NCBI GenBank assembly: GCA_903835255.1
Contig: CAILMI010000032.1
Coordinates: 1-38,550, forward strand
Reading direction: 5' to 3'
Source of the DNA: an uncultured Verrucomicrobia subdivision 3 bacterium
Lineage (GTDB): Bacteria > Verrucomicrobiota > Verrucomicrobiia > Limisphaerales > UBA11358
Length of the DNA: 38,550 bases
Part shown: positions 28,179-37,207 of the stretch, in pieces
How the letters are laid out: each line of letters begins with the position of its first letter
Position numbering within the stretch: the stretch's first letter is position 1
The notes under the pieces: model-generated
What the model saw: only the letters and a program-made list of their open reading frames with translations
Told to the model about the DNA's origin: nothing
Databases searched by the model: none
Made by a program: the position numbers and the translations under genes

Positions 28179-29393
28179 TCATTTCAAGTTGGCTGCGGGG
28201 AGGGTGGGGCGGGGTCCGCGGAAAGCGGCGAGAAAATACAGGAGCACGCCGGCCACGCCCCCCGCGAGTCCGCCCCAGAACAGGGACCAATGAGTGCCGT
28301 CTGAAAAACTGCAGGTGCTGAACCACCAGCCGGTGCCAAGGTAGCCGATGAGGTTTCCGAAGCCCCCGTTCATGAGCGAGAGGAGGGCCTGCGCCCGACC
28401 GCGCCAAGCCGGGTCAACGCGCTGCTCGAGATACATCTGGGCGACCACGAACACGAGAGCAAAGGAGGCCCCGTGCAGAAAGATGCCTGGCAACAGGGTG
28501 GCGTCCGTGTTGAAGGCGGACAGCGCAAACCGCAGGACGCCCAAGGCAAGACCGCAGGCAAAAATCCATTTCAGCCGCCAATGCACCAGCAGCCAGCCCA
28601 AGCCGAACATAGCGATGATCTCGGAACATTGAGCCAGACTCATCCACGCGCTGGTGTGCAGGAACCCGAGGTCGCGCAGCTGCGTGGGCGCAAACGGATA
28701 AAATGCCGCAAGCGGGATGGAAAATAGCATTGCGGTGAGAAAGACGACCCGGATATCACGCTGTTTGAATAGAGTCAGGGCGTCGAGACCGAGCCGTTCA
28801 TGCCAGGTCAGGTGCTCCGCCGAGGCAGGAACCTCCAACACTGGGAGAAAACAGGTGAAGACAGCCACCCCCAGCCACAGGGCCGCACCCAGATAACCGG
28901 CGAAGATCGAGGCATCAAGATTCAATGCGCTGACCAACAGGCCGCCCGCCATCCAGCCGATGGTGGCCATGCAGCGGACCGGGCCGAATTCTTTTTGAGC
29001 ATCGCTCAGCCGCGCCAGAACGAGGGTGGAGGAAATGCTGAACATCGGCGCATAGGAGAAATAGAAGATCTGGACCAGCAGCAGGACCAGCCAAGGATGA
29101 CACCGGGTTTGGATCGCGGCGCTGACCAGGGTCATGGACAGGGCGGTTGCCAGCGCCAGCCAGCGCAGCACGCGCGCCGGCGGCACGTGCCGGTCGGCCA
29201 TTGCCCCGAACATCAGGGGCGAAACGAAGGCCGCCACCGCCGATGCCGCAAAGGCTAAGGGCTTGATGCCATGTAATCCATGCGCGTCCAGGATTGGTCC
29301 CAGCGGCACAAACCAGACCGCCATCGCCGCGCCCTGGATAAAGAACAGGACGAGGAGCTCAAAATATTCAGCCTTGCGCAATGTGGTCAGCAC
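28179..29393 (-). CDS. MFS transporter, nucleoside:H+ symporter (NupG)-like
   Basis: 404 aa from a GTG at 29393 (reads MLTTLRKAEYFELLVLFFIQ). There is no ATG near the true N-terminus, and the frame continues upstream into the AsmA-like gene without transporter character. About twelve transmembrane helices. The first helix QGAAMAVWFVPLG, the LMFGAMADRHVPPARVLRWL loop between helices 2 and 3, and ALLSLMNGGFGNLIGYLGTG near helix 11 match NupG/XapB-type nucleoside symporters. It acts in the inner membrane. It is the last gene on the same strand after the ABC/GldG/DUF4340/AsmA cluster, 194 nt after the AsmA-like gene, so co-transcription is possible but not shown. Confidence 0.82.
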   Translation of the reverse strand: MLTTLRKAEYFELLVLFFIQGAAMAVWFVPLGPILDAHGLHGIKPLAFAASAVAAFVSPLMFGAMADRHVPPARVLRWLALATALSMTLVSAAIQTRCHPWLVLLLVQIFYFSYAPMFSISSTLVLARLSDAQKEFGPVRCMATIGWMAGGLLVSALNLDASIFAGYLGAALWLGVAVFTCFLPVLEVPASAEHLTWHERLGLDALTLFKQRDIRVVFLTAMLFSIPLAAFYPFAPTQLRDLGFLHTSAWMSLAQCSEIIAMFGLGWLLVHWRLKWIFACGLALGVLRFALSAFNTDATLLPGIFLHGASFALVFVVAQMYLEQRVDPAWRGRAQALLSLMNGGFGNLIGYLGTGWWFSTCSFSDGTHWSLFWGGLAGGVAGVLLYFLAAFRGPRPTLPAANLK

Positions 29394-29587
29394 TGGCCCA
29401 GAGGATAGCAACTCCCGCGGAGAATCAAAGCGGGGAACTATCGCAAAGCGCAGACACGCCCCCCCCTGCTCGTACGACTTCCAGCGCGCGGCCCATGACC
29501 ACGCTGAATGCCCCCCCAGCAGTGTCTCGGAATGGCTATTTAAGGAGCCGGAGGAAAAAGAGCTCTCCCGGCGGGGGGTCAGTCGAT

Positions 29588-32236
29588 TCAGGGAGAATCG
29601 CCGCCGGGAAGCAGTTCCCCCAGCGTGCGGAAGGGATGCAGCGGGACCAGCAGGAGTTTGGGGATCAAATACAGGGGTTCGCTCTTGGGATTGGTCAGCG
29701 GGCCAGTGACTTGATATTCGAACAGCTTGCTGAATGGCCAGAACACGGTGGTGACCAGCGGGCCGACACCCCAGGCGTTGCGCAGCACCTGCGCGGTGAC
29801 GCGGGCGTCCACGTTCTGCTGGAGATCGATGGTCCCGATGTATTCCAGCCGCGCCATGGTGGAGTGAATCAGCAGCGAGTCCGTGTAAATCACGCCGTTG
29901 GTGATGATGAATTTTCCGGCCGCCTCCGTTGCCCGGCTGCTGCCCAGCCCAGTGGCAACCGAGTTCAACACCGGCGATAGAATGCCGAAGATGGGGATAT
30001 CCCATAACAATCCGTCGCGCAGATAAATCTGGCCCTCTCCGTTCCAGGTGCGCACATGCATCGTGCTGGCATTGTTCACGGCCAACCGTCCGGACAGCAC
30101 GCCTTCCAGCTGGTTGGTGGGAGCCCACAAATCCAGCGCCAGCGCGTGGAGGTTCAGATTGGTGACATCCACGGCAAAGTTATAATCAGCTCCCTCATGC
30201 GGGAACCGAAAATTAAAATAAGCAAAACCCGTGGCGGCGCCGCCGTAGCAGTCGGCCACAGCATTGGTCAGAAGCAGCGTCTGCCCCCGCCAGAGCAGCG
30301 TGGCGGTGATGTCCTTCGTCTTGACCCGCTCCCATTGGAACGGGGCGCCCCGGATGATTTCAAACCGCATGTCCACCGATGCCATCTCAGGTCCGCCATG
30401 CATGTCGCCCAGCGGTATCTGCCCGTTCACCCGCGCGGCCGGCGGCTGGAAAAAATGATACGGCTCCACCAGCGCTGCGGTTTTGGGTCCGATGGCACGG
30501 GTCACTGGACCGGGATCGGCGGTGCTCAACGCGTTGGTGAATAAAATCAGCCGACGGTTAAAATCCAGCGTCACCGAGTCGGCCGTCGCCATCTGCATCC
30601 CGGTGTGCATCTGCGGCTGCCAAAACGACAGCACCCGGTTGGTGTAATCCACCGTCGCCGTGACGGTGCCGAACACCTCGCCGCGCACGGCGATATTGGT
30701 CACGGCCACGCAACCGCGCACCGCCAGGCTTTGAATCTCGCGCCCGAGGCCCGACACCGTCACATCAAACGCCAGAGGATCCTTCAGATGCACAATCTCC
30801 ATACCGTGCGCCGCCGGGGTTTCCTTTAACAGGTCGCGGGCGGTTGCCTGATCCATCCGGCCTTGGAGACGGCAGCGGTATTCTTTCGTGGCGTCATTCA
30901 GACTGCCGCTGATGTCCAGCCGGCTATTCCCCAGCACCAGCGCCAGATCGGGCAGCTGCCAGACCCGGTTGGAACAGCTGAAATGGCCGGCAACGGAATC
31001 CACCGCCGCGCCCAGTACCCGACCGTTGGCGAGCGCCAGATCCCCGTCAAGCTGCAAGGTCGGAAGGACTTCACCCGCCCAATCCGGCACGGCATCCGTC
31101 CACGGCGGGAGCACCACGGCGCCCTGGAACCGCACGGCCGGCGGCTGAGCCCAGCGGAAGTCCGCGAGCCGCCCGCGCAGTTTTTCCGGCAGCCATCCGG
31201 CCAAGTCGGCCAGATCAAAGCTTGAGGCATTGGTGAAGGCCAGCTCGCGCGTGGCCACGTTTAATCGCAACCCCGCCTCCAGCCGACCCCGTTCCAGCAC
31301 GGCGGACAGGCGGGTGACCACCAATTCCGGCGCGCTCCAAAGACCCGAACAGGACACCGCCTGCGCCCCCTGCCCCGCCGCATTGAATTGGGTGAGCGCG
31401 ACCGACCAGCTGAGGTGATACGGCTGCAGATTCGTCCAAACACCCCAGGCCGGGTCGGGACGATCCGGGGCGCCAGCCGGAGCCGTGAGGCGGGCGATGA
31501 TCTGGACGTCGCGCGCGCGGAACCACGGTGTATGCACCGCCGGAGCCGTCGCCTTGAGCTGAAGCAGGAAGGAATGAGGATCGCGCGCATCGCCATTGAT
31601 TGTAAGACTCAACTGCGACGCGCCCTCGAGAGAGACCCGGGCCAGCGCTTCGGAAAAATCCTGCAACCATGCCCGCTGGCCGGCGGCAGGGTCGCCCTGG
31701 AACAGGGCCCAATCGCGGAGTTCCGACGCATGGGCGACTTCGCCGGAGAGAGCGAGTCTGCCCCCCGCAAAATCCGCCTGAAAACTGTCGAGCGTCCACG
31801 TGTCGTTGGTTTGGAACCGCAGCTCGGTGCGGATGTTCTCAAGCTGCAGGGCATGGGTCGGTGATACCGGCCAAGAGAGCCGACCCTGACGCAGACCGAG
31901 TCCGTCCACCTGCAACCGGCGCCGCAGCAGAGCGTGGAAATTCAGCTGCAACTTGATTTCCGCCAGCGTCAGACTCGGGCTGCCGGAGTTTTGCGCCGGG
32001 GCAAGGCGGACGTTCTCCCCTACGATGCCGCTGTCCAGCCGGAGCCGGAGGCGGGTGAATTCCAGATTCACGCCGCGGTCGCGGCAGGCGGCGACCAGTC
32101 GGGTTTTGAGAAAACCCGGCAGCCCCACCTGATTGAACCAGAACACGGCGACCAGCGCGCCCAGCACCGCCAGCAGCGCGCCCCGCCGCAACCAGCGGAA
32201 GATCACACGGCATTGTCGCCAGAAACCAGGTCGCAT
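29588..32236 (-). CDS. Large AsmA-like envelope protein
   Basis: 882 aa from ATG at 32236 (MRPGFWRQCRVIFRWLRRG); a 24-residue upstream extension overlaps the previous gene and is unlikely. One N-terminal transmembrane helix (about 20-36) is followed by a very long beta-rich periplasmic region, as in AsmA/TamB/YhdP-type proteins. The C-terminal block is the AsmA_2-like region (WNGEGQIYLRDGLLWDIPIFG, AAGKFIITNGVIYTDSLLIH and LEYIGTIDLQQNVDARVTAQ). Proteins of this class form hydrophobic grooves linked to lipid transfer between membranes. It begins 4 nt after the DUF4340 gene, so it belongs to the ABC/GldG cluster. Its role in that cluster is inferred, not known. Confidence 0.85.
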   Translation of the reverse strand: MRPGFWRQCRVIFRWLRRGALLAVLGALVAVFWFNQVGLPGFLKTRLVAACRDRGVNLEFTRLRLRLDSGIVGENVRLAPAQNSGSPSLTLAEIKLQLNFHALLRRRLQVDGLGLRQGRLSWPVSPTHALQLENIRTELRFQTNDTWTLDSFQADFAGGRLALSGEVAHASELRDWALFQGDPAAGQRAWLQDFSEALARVSLEGASQLSLTINGDARDPHSFLLQLKATAPAVHTPWFRARDVQIIARLTAPAGAPDRPDPAWGVWTNLQPYHLSWSVALTQFNAAGQGAQAVSCSGLWSAPELVVTRLSAVLERGRLEAGLRLNVATRELAFTNASSFDLADLAGWLPEKLRGRLADFRWAQPPAVRFQGAVVLPPWTDAVPDWAGEVLPTLQLDGDLALANGRVLGAAVDSVAGHFSCSNRVWQLPDLALVLGNSRLDISGSLNDATKEYRCRLQGRMDQATARDLLKETPAAHGMEIVHLKDPLAFDVTVSGLGREIQSLAVRGCVAVTNIAVRGEVFGTVTATVDYTNRVLSFWQPQMHTGMQMATADSVTLDFNRRLILFTNALSTADPGPVTRAIGPKTAALVEPYHFFQPPAARVNGQIPLGDMHGGPEMASVDMRFEIIRGAPFQWERVKTKDITATLLWRGQTLLLTNAVADCYGGAATGFAYFNFRFPHEGADYNFAVDVTNLNLHALALDLWAPTNQLEGVLSGRLAVNNASTMHVRTWNGEGQIYLRDGLLWDIPIFGILSPVLNSVATGLGSSRATEAAGKFIITNGVIYTDSLLIHSTMARLEYIGTIDLQQNVDARVTAQVLRNAWGVGPLVTTVFWPFSKLFEYQVTGPLTNPKSEPLYLIPKLLLVPLHPFRTLGELLPGGDSP

Positions 32237-32240
32237 AAAA

Positions 32241-34022
32241 TCACCGTACGGATGCCGGAACGGTGAGATACGCCAGAACAAACTGGTAGAGCGTGGCCGG
32301 GAAAACAAAGGCCCAGCGCTCGCCCGCCAAGGTGACGCCGGCCAGAGCCGTCTGGCCGGCGATCTCGGCGCCGAAATTCACGGATAATTTTTCGCCGCCT
32401 TTGAGCTCAATGGAAATCTCCAGATTCTCGGGATTCAGCCCGAACTTTTCCGGCGCGGTCACGTGACGTCCCACCCAGCCGGTGGCGGCCAGGCTGCCCA
32501 ATCGGTGGGCGGTTTCCTCCAGCGCCTCCGGATTGATGATCCCCTGCGACCCGGGGGCCAGCGACCATTTGTTCGGCCCGTTGTGGAGGAGCGTGCGCGT
32601 CCGGCCGCTTTGCCGGAGTGTGATCTGCACCACCTCGCCCTCTGTGAAACGCCATAGGCGCCGCTCGCGGAACTCCCAGCTGGATTCCGGCAGCCGGTTG
32701 AAATCCTCCGGCGAGAGGGCATAGATGAAGTCCTCATCGGCGCGGCGCACAAAAATCCCGTTGGTCTGCACGGCGAAAGCCAGCTGCGCACTGAGAACAT
32801 TGGTGCCATCCGACGCCGTGCGCACGAGAATTTCCCGCTGCGGCGGCGCCAGTCCGTAGGCGGCCAGATCAGGCGCAGTTACGACGTCCTTCACAAATCC
32901 GGCGACGCGCAGACCGCTCAAAACCTTAAGAAACAATTGCACATTGTCTGCATCGGCCGGGAAGGATTCACCCGCCAGGCTCCAGCCATTGGTGCCCTGC
33001 CGCTTCAAAATGAATCCGTCCGGACCGCGCACCTCGATTTCGGTGACAGGGTCGGTCAGCGATAGCAGGTGCGGATCGCGAAAATCATTCACAGCTCCAT
33101 ACCAGAACGCTAGCGCCTCCCTCGGCGCCGCCACGACCGGAGTGAAGCCCTTGCGATTCGCGTAGACCTGGGCGGAGTCATTGGTCACCGCTTTGCCGGC
33201 GTCTAGGGCGGAGAGGGCATTGGTCCCGCTCCGCAGCCAGAGCGATAGATCAGGGGGCTGAAGGCCGAACATGGCCAGATCCGCCCCGGCATCCTCGGTG
33301 ATAAAGTGCGTGACCGACGCCGACTGGAGCTGCTGCAATGCCTCGGTGATGCGGTCGCTGTCGGCACGGGCCTGTAGCGGACGGATCATGCGCCAGGGGC
33401 GGCGGGCGGCGTCGCGCCGCAGTTCGATGACTTTCGTGTCATTGGTCAGCACGATGGCGTCGCAGGTGCTGGCGTCCGACGCCACCAGCGCTGTGCTGCG
33501 CCAGTCATTGGGGGAGCGCGGGACGAACTTCAACCATTCCACATCGGTCACAAACGCACCATCCACACCGACCACGCGGAGGAAGACCTGGTCGCCGGGC
33601 GGGGTTTTGTTTCCGACCAGCAGCTGCCAGCGCTGATCTCCGGACTCGACGACCAGCGAGAGCTGCGGGGCATCAAAGCCGAAATCGGTGGCCGCCGCAG
33701 GATGCTCGCAAAGTTCCCCGGCACTGATCCGGGTGGCGGGGGCGAGCTTTTGAAGGGCCGCCAGCAGCGCCTCGATGGCGGCGGGCTGGGCCGGGTATTC
33801 CAAGGGCTTGGAGAGCTGCCAGGAATGGTTGGTGCGGTGCGCGCGGATTTCAAGGGCCCCAGCGGGGATCACCTGGAGGCGGGTGACCGAGGCCGGCTGA
33901 AGGCCGGGCAGGACCAGACGAGCGGCCCCCGCCGGCGGGATCACGTAGCGCTCCCGGATCAAAATAGACGCCAGCAATCCAGCAGCCACCACCCACCAGA
34001 GCCATGTGCTTTTAGTGTTCAT
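32241..34022 (-). CDS. DUF4340 domain-containing protein
   Basis: 593 aa. One N-terminal transmembrane anchor (TWLWWVVAAGLLASILI, about 5-22), then a periplasmic region with the repeated DUF4340 pattern. The repeats include LEIRAHRTNHSWQLSKPLEYPA, then IELRRDAARRPWRMIRPLQARAD, then ILKRQGTNGWSLAGESFPAD, then RTLLHNGPNKWSLAPG, each a strand pair with a Trp and a nearby LxxPxxxxAD-like turn. DUF4340 proteins are regularly encoded next to GldG-like proteins and ABC exporters; no activity is known. Its ATG overlaps the stop of the GldG-like gene by one base (TAATG). Confidence 0.9.
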   Translation of the reverse strand: MNTKSTWLWWVVAAGLLASILIRERYVIPPAGAARLVLPGLQPASVTRLQVIPAGALEIRAHRTNHSWQLSKPLEYPAQPAAIEALLAALQKLAPATRISAGELCEHPAAATDFGFDAPQLSLVVESGDQRWQLLVGNKTPPGDQVFLRVVGVDGAFVTDVEWLKFVPRSPNDWRSTALVASDASTCDAIVLTNDTKVIELRRDAARRPWRMIRPLQARADSDRITEALQQLQSASVTHFITEDAGADLAMFGLQPPDLSLWLRSGTNALSALDAGKAVTNDSAQVYANRKGFTPVVAAPREALAFWYGAVNDFRDPHLLSLTDPVTEIEVRGPDGFILKRQGTNGWSLAGESFPADADNVQLFLKVLSGLRVAGFVKDVVTAPDLAAYGLAPPQREILVRTASDGTNVLSAQLAFAVQTNGIFVRRADEDFIYALSPEDFNRLPESSWEFRERRLWRFTEGEVVQITLRQSGRTRTLLHNGPNKWSLAPGSQGIINPEALEETAHRLGSLAATGWVGRHVTAPEKFGLNPENLEISIELKGGEKLSVNFGAEIAGQTALAGVTLAGERWAFVFPATLYQFVLAYLTVPASVR

Positions 34023-35491
34023 TATTTACGGCGCACCAGCCAGACCAGCCAGCCCAAGATCAACACCCCGCCCGGCAGCGCGCCCAGCAGCAGCCAGCGG
34101 ACTTTTTCCAGCTGCGCGCGCGTCATCGTCAGACGGAATTCAGTGACTGGTCTCGGGCCGATCCCCTCCAGCAGCACCGTGCGATCCAGCAGCCAGTTCG
34201 CAGCGTAACCCACGAAATCGCGATTGGCGCACGCCTCCATCATCTGATTATCGAGAAAAAAGGAATCGCCCGTCACAATCATCCGGGTGGTGCCGCGGGT
34301 GTTGGCCACGCCGGGGAGGGTTTTCTGCTCCACCGCGACCATCAAGGGATAGCGCTGCGGCGGGGTCGCGGAATCGACCATGAGCGAGGATTGCGGGCTG
34401 GAGAAGGCCAGTTCATCCACCCGCGGCGCGTTGGCGGGCGGGGTTTTCCAGTCCACCCGGCTGACGGGGCGGGGCAGCACCAGTTCGAGGGCCAGCTGCA
34501 CAAGCGGACCCGCCACCGGATGCGGACTGAACTCATAGGCGATCACATCCTGGCCGGAATGGGTGTTTTTGGGCTCCCGCACGGCGTCGGGGAGGACGTT
34601 GACGCCCCAGCGGGCCAGGATGGGCTCGAGGCCGGTGGGATGCTTGATGGAAAAATAATTGAGCAGCAGGAAAAGCCGCCCGCCCTGGGCGAGGTATTGA
34701 TCAATCTTCTGAAGCTCCGACTCGGAAAACTCCGTGCGCGGCCCGGCGATGACGAGCAGATTGCAATCCTCGGGCACAGCGGCGCTGCCCGCGAGCAGCA
34801 GCGGCGCGGTGGCGATATAGCTCTCCGCCAGCACCGAGCTGAATTTTTGATAATCCGTCTCGCCGGTGCCCTCCAGCGAAGGTTCGCCGTGCCCCTGAAG
34901 AAAATACGCTTGGAGCGGCCGGGGGTTCACCACCGCGAGCAGCATGGTGGTAAACATCATCTCCCCGTTGAAGGCGACGGGCTTCCGCCGAAACTCGCGC
35001 TGGGCCGCATTGGGCACCTGCTCCAGCTTGATCTGGGTGAGAGCGTCGCCATTGATCATTTTAACGCGGCCCGCGCAATCAAAGATCACCAGGTCCTTGT
35101 CCTTGGACGAGTTCAGCTTGTACTGCGCCTTAATTTTCTGGGCCTCCCCGGCATCCCGCAGATAGTCCACGACCTTGACGGAAATGTTGGGATTGGCGGA
35201 GCGGTATTCGTTCAGCAGGGCGATGATGGTGGGATAAAAATTCCCGTCATCCCGGGTGTCATAATAGACCGTCACCTGGACGCGATTGGTCATCGATTGC
35301 ACCACATGCAGGGAGCGGGTGGACAAGGCCACCCGCGTCTGCGAACTCAGATAAAACCGTCCGTAAAATTTTGAGCCCAGATAATTCACCATCACCACCA
35401 CCGCCAGCACCAGGACGGTGCGCAGCGCCACGTCCAGGGCGATGGTCCAGCGGCGGCGGGCGGAAAAACTGGGTTGGGGGTTGGGGTTCAT
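34022..35491 (-). CDS. GldG-like ABC-associated membrane protein
   Basis: 489 aa. Transmembrane helices sit near the N-terminus (about 17-40) and at the C-terminus (about 463-483, GALPGGVLILGWLVWLV), with a large extracytoplasmic part between. Family blocks: NRVQVTVYYDTRDDGNFYPT, PNISVKVVDYLRDAGEAQ, LQAYFLQGHGEPSL and CNLLVIAGPRTEFSESELQK followed by IDQYLAQGGRLFLLL, which is the IFT52/GATase-like fold of Gldg-family proteins. It is 1 nt from the permease stop and overlaps the DUF4340 gene. In Bacteroidetes GldG belongs with GldA/GldF and gliding; outside that phylum the family occurs without gliding genes, so gliding is not implied. Confidence 0.9.
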   Translation of the reverse strand: MNPNPQPSFSARRRWTIALDVALRTVLVLAVVVMVNYLGSKFYGRFYLSSQTRVALSTRSLHVVQSMTNRVQVTVYYDTRDDGNFYPTIIALLNEYRSANPNISVKVVDYLRDAGEAQKIKAQYKLNSSKDKDLVIFDCAGRVKMINGDALTQIKLEQVPNAAQREFRRKPVAFNGEMMFTTMLLAVVNPRPLQAYFLQGHGEPSLEGTGETDYQKFSSVLAESYIATAPLLLAGSAAVPEDCNLLVIAGPRTEFSESELQKIDQYLAQGGRLFLLLNYFSIKHPTGLEPILARWGVNVLPDAVREPKNTHSGQDVIAYEFSPHPVAGPLVQLALELVLPRPVSRVDWKTPPANAPRVDELAFSSPQSSLMVDSATPPQRYPLMVAVEQKTLPGVANTRGTTRMIVTGDSFFLDNQMMEACANRDFVGYAANWLLDRTVLLEGIGPRPVTEFRLTMTRAQLEKVRWLLLGALPGGVLILGWLVWLVRRK

Positions 35492-35492
35492 G

Positions 35493-36245
35493 TCATTTCC
35501 AGCGGCGGCTTTCCACCGCGCGCAGCGTGAGGAACAGGAAGAAAAAGATCGCGCTCACGTAAAAAACCACAGTGCGCGTGTCCACCACCCCCCGGGCAAA
35601 ATCATGCATCTGCTCGAACAGGCCGAAATAGGAAAGCGCCTGCGACTGCCACTGCGCCGTGACCGGCAGCGCCTCCGCCAGAAAACCGAGCGAAAACAAA
35701 CTCACTCCCAGCACAAAACTAATCATCGCCGCCGCCATCTGGCTGCGGGACAGGGCCGAGGCGAAGCAGCCCAGGGACAAAAACAAGCCGCCGGTCAGGA
35801 AAATGCCCAGATACATTCCCCCCACCGTGCCGGCGTCCAGCGCGCCGCCTTGGCCGGTGAAATGCCGCACCGTCAACAGACACACCAGGGTCGGCAGCCA
35901 GGCGGTCAAATAAAATATCAGAGCTGCCGCAAACTTGGCCACCACCACCGGAAGGTCTCCCACCGGGGTCGTCATGAGGGTCTCGAAGGTGCCGGACGAT
36001 TTTTCCAGGGCGAACAGCCGCATCGTGATCACCGGCGTGGAGAGCAGCACGATCAACCAGAAAAAATAGGTGCGATAAAACATCTCCGTCACCGGCATGA
36101 GCGATGGATCGGAACCCAGGTTGGTCATCAACACCACGAAACTCAAACTGTTCAACAACGTCACCGCCGCGATGATGATGTAACCCGTGACCGAGAGGAA
36201 AAAGGACGCCAGCTCCCGTCGCAATAAAGTCATGAAGACGCGCAT
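35493..36245 (-). CDS. ABC transporter permease (GldF-like, ABC-2 type)
   Basis: 250 aa from ATG at 36245 (MRVFMTLLRRELASFFLSVT). The frame is open to 36467, but that part lies inside the ATPase gene. Six hydrophobic helices (about 17-37, 58-80, 104-127, 137-163, 169-193 and 222-242). The loop MRLFALEKSSGTFETLMTTPVGDLPVV is the conserved ABC-2 permease segment that contacts the ATPase. It works with the ATPase upstream, whose stop codon overlaps this start (TAATG). The substrate is unknown. Confidence 0.93.
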   Translation of the reverse strand: MRVFMTLLRRELASFFLSVTGYIIIAAVTLLNSLSFVVLMTNLGSDPSLMPVTEMFYRTYFFWLIVLLSTPVITMRLFALEKSSGTFETLMTTPVGDLPVVVAKFAAALIFYLTAWLPTLVCLLTVRHFTGQGGALDAGTVGGMYLGIFLTGGLFLSLGCFASALSRSQMAAAMISFVLGVSLFSLGFLAEALPVTAQWQSQALSYFGLFEQMHDFARGVVDTRTVVFYVSAIFFFLFLTLRAVESRRWK

Positions 36246-37207
36246 TAGTTTTCCTCCTCCTCGTTCCGCTGGGTCACCTGGACATAGACGTCCTCGAGCG
36301 AGTGACGGCTCCGCATCAGCTCCCGCAATACCCAGCCGCGCTCGCGCGCCAGCAGGAAAATCTCCGGACGCAGATCGCAGCCGTCGCGCGGGGTCAGGGT
36401 GCACCGATGAAAATCGCCCCCCGATGCCGCCACATCGAACTGGAGCACGCCGGGCATCGCCGCCCACGCCGCGCGCAACGCCTCCGCCGGGGCGGCGATT
36501 TCCGCCACGACCGGGCTGCTGCCCTGCATCAATTTCTGCAGATTCTCAGGCGTGTCCGCCGCGAGAATTTCTCCGGCATAAAGAATCAACATGCGGCTGC
36601 ACATCATTTCCGCCTCCGGCAGGATGTGCGTTGAAATCAGCACCGTGTGCCGGTCCGCAAGGCTTTTAATCAGCTGCCGTACCGAGCGGATCTGGTTCGG
36701 ATCCAGGCCGATGGTGGGCTCGTCCAGAATGATCAGGTCCGGCTCATGCACTAGCGCGTCAGCCAGGCCCACGCGCTGCTTGTAGCCCTTGGAAAGCTGT
36801 CCAATGATGCGACGGTCCACATCCGTCAGACCGCATTGCTCCATCACCGTGGCCACGCGCTCGCGCGAGCGCCGCCACCCGAGGCCCTTGAGCCGCGCGC
36901 GATATTTGAGGTACTCCCGCACGCGCATCTCCGGATAGAGCGGATTATTTTCCGGCATGAACCCGATGCGCCGACGGACCTCGACCGATTCGCGGAAAAC
37001 ATCGAAGCCGGCCACGCGCACCGTGCCACTCGTGGCCGGCAGGAAGGTGGAAAGAATCCGCATGGTCGTGCTTTTCCCGGCGCCGTTAGGCCCGAGCAGC
37101 CCGACGATCTCGCCGCGGCCGACCGTAAACGAAATATCCGCCACGGCGGTGCGGCCGGCGTAGCGCTTCGTCAGGTTCGACACCTCAATCATGGGAATCT
37201 GGCTCAT
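36245..37207 (-). CDS. ABC transporter ATP-binding protein (GldA-like)
   Basis: 320 aa from ATG at 37207 (MSQIPMIEVSNLTKRY); an alternative ATG is five codons later. The extension to 37402 has no ABC character. Walker A is GPNGAGKST (residues 39-47). The signature is LSKGYKQRVGLADAL, Walker B is LIILDEPTIGLDPNQ and the switch His is in STHILPEAEM. The last ~85 residues are the C-terminal DUF4162-like domain usual in ABC-2 exporter ATPases, ending in an EEEEN tail. It is the first gene of the five-gene coupled cluster and diverges from ymdB. Confidence 0.93.
   Translation of the reverse strand: MSQIPMIEVSNLTKRYAGRTAVADISFTVGRGEIVGLLGPNGAGKSTTMRILSTFLPATSGTVRVAGFDVFRESVEVRRRIGFMPENNPLYPEMRVREYLKYRARLKGLGWRRSRERVATVMEQCGLTDVDRRIIGQLSKGYKQRVGLADALVHEPDLIILDEPTIGLDPNQIRSVRQLIKSLADRHTVLISTHILPEAEMMCSRMLILYAGEILAADTPENLQKLMQGSSPVVAEIAAPAEALRAAWAAMPGVLQFDVAASGGDFHRCTLTPRDGCDLRPEIFLLARERGWVLRELMRSRHSLEDVYVQVTQRNEEEEN

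Follow-up and report, generated by a model that had tools for sequence, protein, structure and literature searches.

We identified five genes in series on the minus strand of a 38,550-nucleotide (nt) stretch of DNA from an uncultured Verrucomicrobia subdivision 3 bacterium (contig CAILMI010000032.1, here C32; hereafter the window), encoding an ATP-binding cassette (ABC) transporter ATPase, an ABC-2 type permease, a GldG-like protein, a triple-DUF4340 protein and an AsmA/YhdP-like protein. The genome to which the window belongs comprises 3.17 Mb in 70 contigs and is 97.5% complete. We file the set as a GldAFG-like/DUF4340 ABC system plus an AsmA-like protein, kept over much of the Verrucomicrobiota. 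We infer, with a probability of roughly 40%, that the products may form one envelope export pathway, in which the exporter would feed an AsmA-type groove by which lipids or lipidated cargo reach the outer membrane. No description of a DUF4340/GldG/AsmA unit was found in the openly licensed PubMed Central (PMC) literature.

The five genes are joined by very short junctions. The ATPase gene (P0001, 320 amino acids (aa); 36245..37207) overlaps through its stop codon with the ATG of the permease gene (P0002, 250 aa; 35493..36245) at position 36245, in the sequence TAATG, and the permease gene ends at 35493, leaving a gap of 1 nt before the ATG of the GldG-like gene at 35491 (P0003, 489 aa; 34022..35491). 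The stop codon of the latter again overlaps the ATG of the DUF4340 gene (P0004, 593 aa; 32241..34022) in a TAATG at 34022, and 4 nt separate the end of the DUF4340 gene at 32241 from the ATG of the AsmA-like gene at 32236 (P0005, 882 aa; 29588..32236). An earlier note on this DNA had claimed five tightly joined genes with these overlaps and gaps, and our re-derivation of the junctions reproduced them exactly. Matches to promoters (2 versus a shuffled mean of 1.8) and terminators (9 versus 9.8) were not above those in shuffled sequences, and we therefore claim no transcript boundary.

Searching with the GldG-like protein alone, we recovered 14 relatives, namely metagenome-assembled genomes (MAGs) of Verrucomicrobiota subdivision 3 or Limisphaerales, one Verrucomicrobiales MAG and MAGs less exactly named; on this basis the source is probably a member of the Limisphaerales. 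All 14 loci had the first four genes, from ATPase to DUF4340, together in the same order (in L012, the ATPase and DUF4340 genes are partly missing at the contig ends, and the contig stops 2 nt past the DUF4340 fragment), neighbours among the four overlapping by 1-4 nt or lying at most 6 nt apart. Of the 13 loci with enough contig to show it, 11 had an AsmA-like gene directly 3′ of the DUF4340 gene. In L004, 3.7 kb with two open reading frames (ORFs) separates the DUF4340 gene from the AsmA-like gene (L004:13315-16951; the intervening ORFs are of 1100 and 108 aa, the only such case among the 14 relatives), and in L014 no AsmA match was detected within the 8.2 kb following DUF4340.

Adjacency of the AsmA-like gene in relatives, on which the earlier note had made its proposal depend, was kept in 100 of the 114 DUF4340-bearing genomes of the order Limisphaerales and in 70 of the 118 GldG-bearing genomes sampled across the phylum. 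DUF4340 was matched in 114 of 116 Limisphaerales genomes and the AsmA-like profile in 108 (E <= 1e-8), each of the 108 having both. The two matches shared a contig in 96 genomes, always on the same strand and with AsmA on the 3′ side; judged from match positions after correction for the profile ends, which are not an ORF-by-ORF reading, the distance was within 750 nt in 92 and 905-1160 nt in four. Exceptionally long open frames (1153-1350 aa) were present in three of these four, and the match in the remaining one (G278) was incomplete. In fetched stretches of a further four genomes (G196, G239, G260 and G270), a partial AsmA ORF followed DUF4340 immediately at the contig end. The contig ends within about 1 kb in four others (G289, G194, G241 and G213), and ten had no AsmA-like gene next (G306, G298, G266, G297, G252, G275, G291, G303, G284 and G308); in seven of these (G266, G252, G275, G291, G303, G284 and G308), 1.4-5.5 kb of sequence was inspected.

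At the level of the phylum, GldG was found in 118 of 194 genomes, and we called ORFs and ran profiles on the surroundings of the gene in 117 of these genomes and in the window. The 70 adjacent cases were obtained with profiles broadened by the ORFs of the fetched loci, compared with 68 obtained with the original profiles; a coarser tally from genome-level profile hits (31 adjacent of 47 with both) overlooked AsmA genes that had diverged and genomes poor in DUF4340. Of 39 families, 25 included one or more adjacent cases and the other 14 none, and the AsmA-adjacent genomes include members of other classes of the phylum. On a FastTree phylogeny of GldG, adjacency required 9 changes compared with a shuffled mean of 38.4 (0 of 500 shuffles as low), a clustering also expected from plain relatedness. 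Of the 130 rows of the tree, whose root was not established, 122 carried a label, 73 as adjacent and 49 as non-adjacent; 11 labelled rows are extra Limisphaerales loci, chosen because adjacency had not been seen on one contig (7 non-adjacent, 4 adjacent), so that non-adjacent cases are over-represented. This distribution agrees with an ancient unit that certain clades have split apart or never possessed. Furthermore, the most recurrent flanking family occurred in only 22 of the 146 loci carrying the core, and the five-gene set stands out from its surroundings.

The ABC core resembles GldA-GldF-GldG of gliding Bacteroidota in combining an ATPase, a permease and a GldG-like partner. P0001 matched ABC_tran (E 1.7e-33), and because its translation holds the motifs GPNGAGKST, LSKGYKQR and LIILDEP intact, it should be an active ATPase. 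Of these, LSKGYKQR closely resembles the GldA signature, LSKGYRQR (PMC9127263). P0002 is GldF-like and matched only ABC2 families in Pfam, including ABC2_membrane_4 (36 bits, cut-off 27), and P0003 exceeded the cut-offs of both ABC_transp_aux (86.7 bits) and DUF7088 (32.1 bits). Gld models were the best NCBIfam models for P0001 and the best or only ones for P0002 and P0003. Nevertheless, all three proteins scored below the curated cut-offs (P0001 against GldA TIGR03522, 307.5 versus 402.6 bits; P0002 against GldF TIGR03518, 139.8 versus 288.5; P0003 against GldG TIGR03521, 74.3 versus 389.85), and the DUF4340 and AsmA-like proteins are additions to the Gld arrangement. GldM, the sole gliding gene searched for, gave no match in the genome and none in 14 control genomes either.

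Permease and GldG-like domains were fused in a single ORF of about 730-800 aa in six loci (L086:3691-5937, L092:2848-5097, L095:7187-9580, L105:2547-4727, L137:7382-9631 and L194:7985-10165), which supports direct contact between the permease and its GldG-like partner. The middle part of GldG matched the GIFT domain of IFT52 chains among solved structures (E 1.9e-5), and a GldG relative in archaea (arCOG01314) has been described in another gene context (PMC5898192). P0004, the sole DUF4340 gene found in the genome, matched PF14238 at 158.6 bits (cut-off 25) over three DUF4340 stretches, and its low-confidence model (predicted local distance difference test (pLDDT) score, 61) placed an N-terminal helix at residues 6-27. 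A sequence search of solved structures with DUF4340 returned a single chance-level match (E 0.6), and Foldseek with the model returned none at E <= 0.001; DUF4340 is without a clear relative of known fold. A DUF4340-domain protein, VSP_RS39600, was reported as essential in Verrucomicrobium spinosum (PMC12283558), and PA4040 of P. aeruginosa has been named as a DUF4340 protein (PMC8088628).

P0005 resembles the AsmA class (YhdP, TamB, YdbH and AsmA) in its remote homology to YhdP and AsmA, its N-terminal helix and its mostly beta character. It matched the C-terminus of YhdP (E 6.8e-11) and AsmA (E 2.5e-4), and at E <= 1e-3 its close relatives matched YhdP in 11 of 12 cases and AsmA in 7 of 12. 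The AlphaFold model contained an N-terminal helix (residues 6-31) and 50 strands, and the strands presented an apolar face on one side (2.59 versus 1.65 +/- 0.20 for shuffles, 0 of 500 as high). ApoB100 was the top match of the model in both Foldseek (E 2.5e-6, TM-score 0.11) and VIA-align (Z 11.4, root-mean-square deviation 11.0, 287 aligned residues), the latter also listing many unrelated beta proteins at Z 7-9; TamAB ranked low in Foldseek (rank 47, E 0.8) and was absent among the 50 VIA-align rows listed, a placing that speaks neither for nor against the groove. The model fits an AsmA-type groove without proving one. With the AsmA-like profile, no solved structure was matched by sequence at E <= 1. 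Relatives of P0005 were detected neither among viral contigs nor on the plasmids searched. The protein also differs from the AsmA class in being coupled by gene order to an ABC exporter; we know of no such exporter link for the E. coli members.

Genome-wide, a search with AsmA (PF05170) yielded two weak matches, both in short open frames (287 and 339 aa), but did not find P0005, and a search with YhdP found P0005 and the 339 aa frame. P0005 is accordingly the only long AsmA-class protein found, and others may have been missed because P0005 itself scores below the cut-off. TamB had no match in this genome, with 6 of 14 control genomes positive, and the MlaD (MCE) domain had none among six window proteins.

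Taking these observations together, we propose that the ATPase and the ABC-2 permease would act at the inner membrane, where they would extract or flip a lipidic substrate, be it a phospholipid or some lipidated molecule. Predicted to be membrane-anchored with large periplasmic parts, the GldG-like and DUF4340 proteins would relay the substrate to the AsmA/YhdP-like protein, which may form an extended amphipathic groove of beta strands that crosses the periplasm in the direction of the outer membrane. In favour of this reading, AsmA-class proteins of the Gram-negative envelope, among them YhdP and TamB of E. coli, have been reported to transport phospholipids (PMC11226057). The sequences themselves show the gene set with its order and tight junctions, its wide conservation, the ATPase motifs, the remote AsmA/YhdP homology and the permease-GldG fusions; physical contact between exporter and groove, the lipidic nature of the cargo, outward direction and a flow driven by ATP would be further features of such a pathway. 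The working analogy is the lipopolysaccharide transport (Lpt) system, in which an ABC exporter feeds a periplasm-spanning beta groove; the unit would realise an Lpt-like principle built from other parts, its permease belonging to ABC2_membrane_4 and not to LptF_LptG. Export of lipids or of other envelope material, as suggested in the earlier note, holds up as the most plausible reading, one that we infer rather than observe.

Several findings weigh against this export pathway. The scores of P0005 lie below the Pfam cut-offs for both YhdP (41.3 bits, cut-off 46) and AsmA (20.4 bits, cut-off 29.8); of ten diverged relatives across the phylum, six matched YhdP and four matched no Pfam family, so that for the most distant members the AsmA name rests on profile and position. 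The structural model is weak (pLDDT 63, predicted TM-score 0.51), and the TM-score of the ApoB100 match was only 0.11-0.20. No AsmA-like gene stood next to DUF4340 in 41 of the 118 GldG-bearing genomes of the phylum; the rest of the 118 comprised one with a 1.9 kb gap (G140), two with a contig break and four with no recognised DUF4340 beside GldG. Conversely, two genomes of 0.9 Mb (G036 and G057) contained an AsmA-like match (E 1.1e-9 and 6.0e-9; genes at L129:5377-7728 and L131:4916-7261) and no match to GldG or DUF4340, indicating that genome reduction can leave the AsmA-like protein in place without the core. A plasmid of Subdoligranulum, a member of the Bacillota, carried the ATPase, permease, GldG and DUF4340 genes by profile (L167:2855-7363) with no AsmA match beside them, and the core therefore needs no outer membrane. 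Finally, the window's genome encodes two LptF/G proteins on other contigs and six MlaD matches on contigs C20, C34, C41 and C54, not on C32, and lipids could thus travel by other routes.

A Bradyrhizobium plasmid is likewise annotated with the four-gene core in this order; its DUF4340 gene is short (528 bp), and no AsmA match lies beside the core. The core is hence wider than the Verrucomicrobiota, and these plasmid systems share the four genes and their order with the unit. In the Limisphaerales genome G306, the core and the AsmA-like gene are on different contigs. Since each half occurs without the other in some genomes, the bond is common and not obligate; the stoichiometric complex envisaged in the earlier note would go beyond these data.

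The same separations are what would be expected if the two halves were merely stable neighbours, with the AsmA-like protein acting as an ordinary passive phospholipid bridge and the exporter serving a separate envelope task, the two being linked by co-regulation. The 41 genomes lacking the neighbour, the two reduced genomes, the plasmid cores and G306 all favour this explanation. It also accords with work on E. coli, in which AsmA-type phospholipid transport was described as diffusive (PMC11226057). We consider it nearly as probable as the export pathway. Against it, the adjacency is kept over much of the phylum with few changes on the GldG tree, outlives its flanks and, in close relatives, is accompanied by junctions of a few nt or overlaps.

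The groove may instead receive lipoproteins from the exporter, for placement in the outer membrane or for surface display, similar to a proposal made for GspN of type II secretion, which resembles the present case in being an AsmA-like protein tied to an export machine. GldJ and GldK/PorK are lipoproteins. Both were reported to be lost in GldA mutants (PMC9127263), and in A. baumannii surface lipoproteins depend on GspN (PMC12802150). P0005 itself showed a weak N-terminal match to the NCBIfam GspN model, confined to residues 18-111 and scoring 27.6 bits, below the cut-off of 50; the model spans 280 positions compared with the 882 aa of P0005. Moreover, ORFs that by eye look like secretin, GspL/GspM and GspE form a type-II-secretion-like block convergent to the AsmA-like gene in relatives (L005:11688-16876, L007:15963-20160, L015:16378-21463, L016:15074-19874 and L097:1-4747). 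However, the block lies on the opposite strand and was not observed next to the unit in the window, its secretin-like family was confined to close relatives (10 of 146 loci, each of them one of the 14), and no lipoprotein substrate was identified; we regard lipoprotein transfer as improbable. As a separate observation, the block in L097 stays beside the AsmA-like gene, and the ABC core is on another contig. Still less probable, to the point of being a long shot, is export of an envelope polymer or glycolipid instead of a phospholipid or lipoprotein. ABC-2 permeases include polymer and drug exporters, and DrrA was the second-best NCBIfam model for P0001, below its cut-off; nonetheless, no glycosyltransferase or polymerase was recognised by eye among the 14 most recurrent flanking families.

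Beyond the AsmA-like gene, the window contains a major facilitator superfamily (MFS) gene on the minus strand (28179..29393; Nuc_H_symport, PF03825, 185.5 bits), whose GTG start at 29393, one choice among several, follows the end of the AsmA-like gene at 29588 by 194 nt. The earlier note left room for its belonging to the unit; it was beside the unit in none of the 14 relatives' loci and none of 134 fetched loci, a set that includes AsmA-only loci, and we rejected it as a member. The other flanks of the window were similarly unconserved, with a YmdB-like gene recurring in 1 of the 134 loci and the aldo/keto reductase, EamA-like and isocitrate dehydrogenase genes in none. In two genomes in which the AsmA-like gene lies away from the core (L059:3110-4021 and L065:5990-6970), its neighbour was judged by eye to be endonuclease IV-like. 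The remaining genes scanned with Pfam, at window positions 2701-25655, were ordinary: M3 and M48 peptidases, PheT, a riboflavin kinase/flavin adenine dinucleotide synthetase, NusA, Rho, a Clp ATPase, isocitrate dehydrogenase and a Colicin_V-like membrane protein.

To our knowledge, the loading or powering of any AsmA-class protein is an open question, and the present unit, with its AsmA-like gene beside an ABC exporter in much of the phylum, gives a tangible system for testing whether ATP drives such loading. A wider claim, that ATP-driven loading of an AsmA/YhdP-like bridge by an exporter with GldG and DUF4340 periplasmic parts is widespread and constitutes a main non-Lpt route of lipids or lipidated molecules to the outer membrane in many Verrucomicrobiota, seems to us rather doubtful at present. 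If the export pathway proposed here is true, it would provide a function for DUF4340 and for GldG-like proteins, which extend beyond gliding bacteria.

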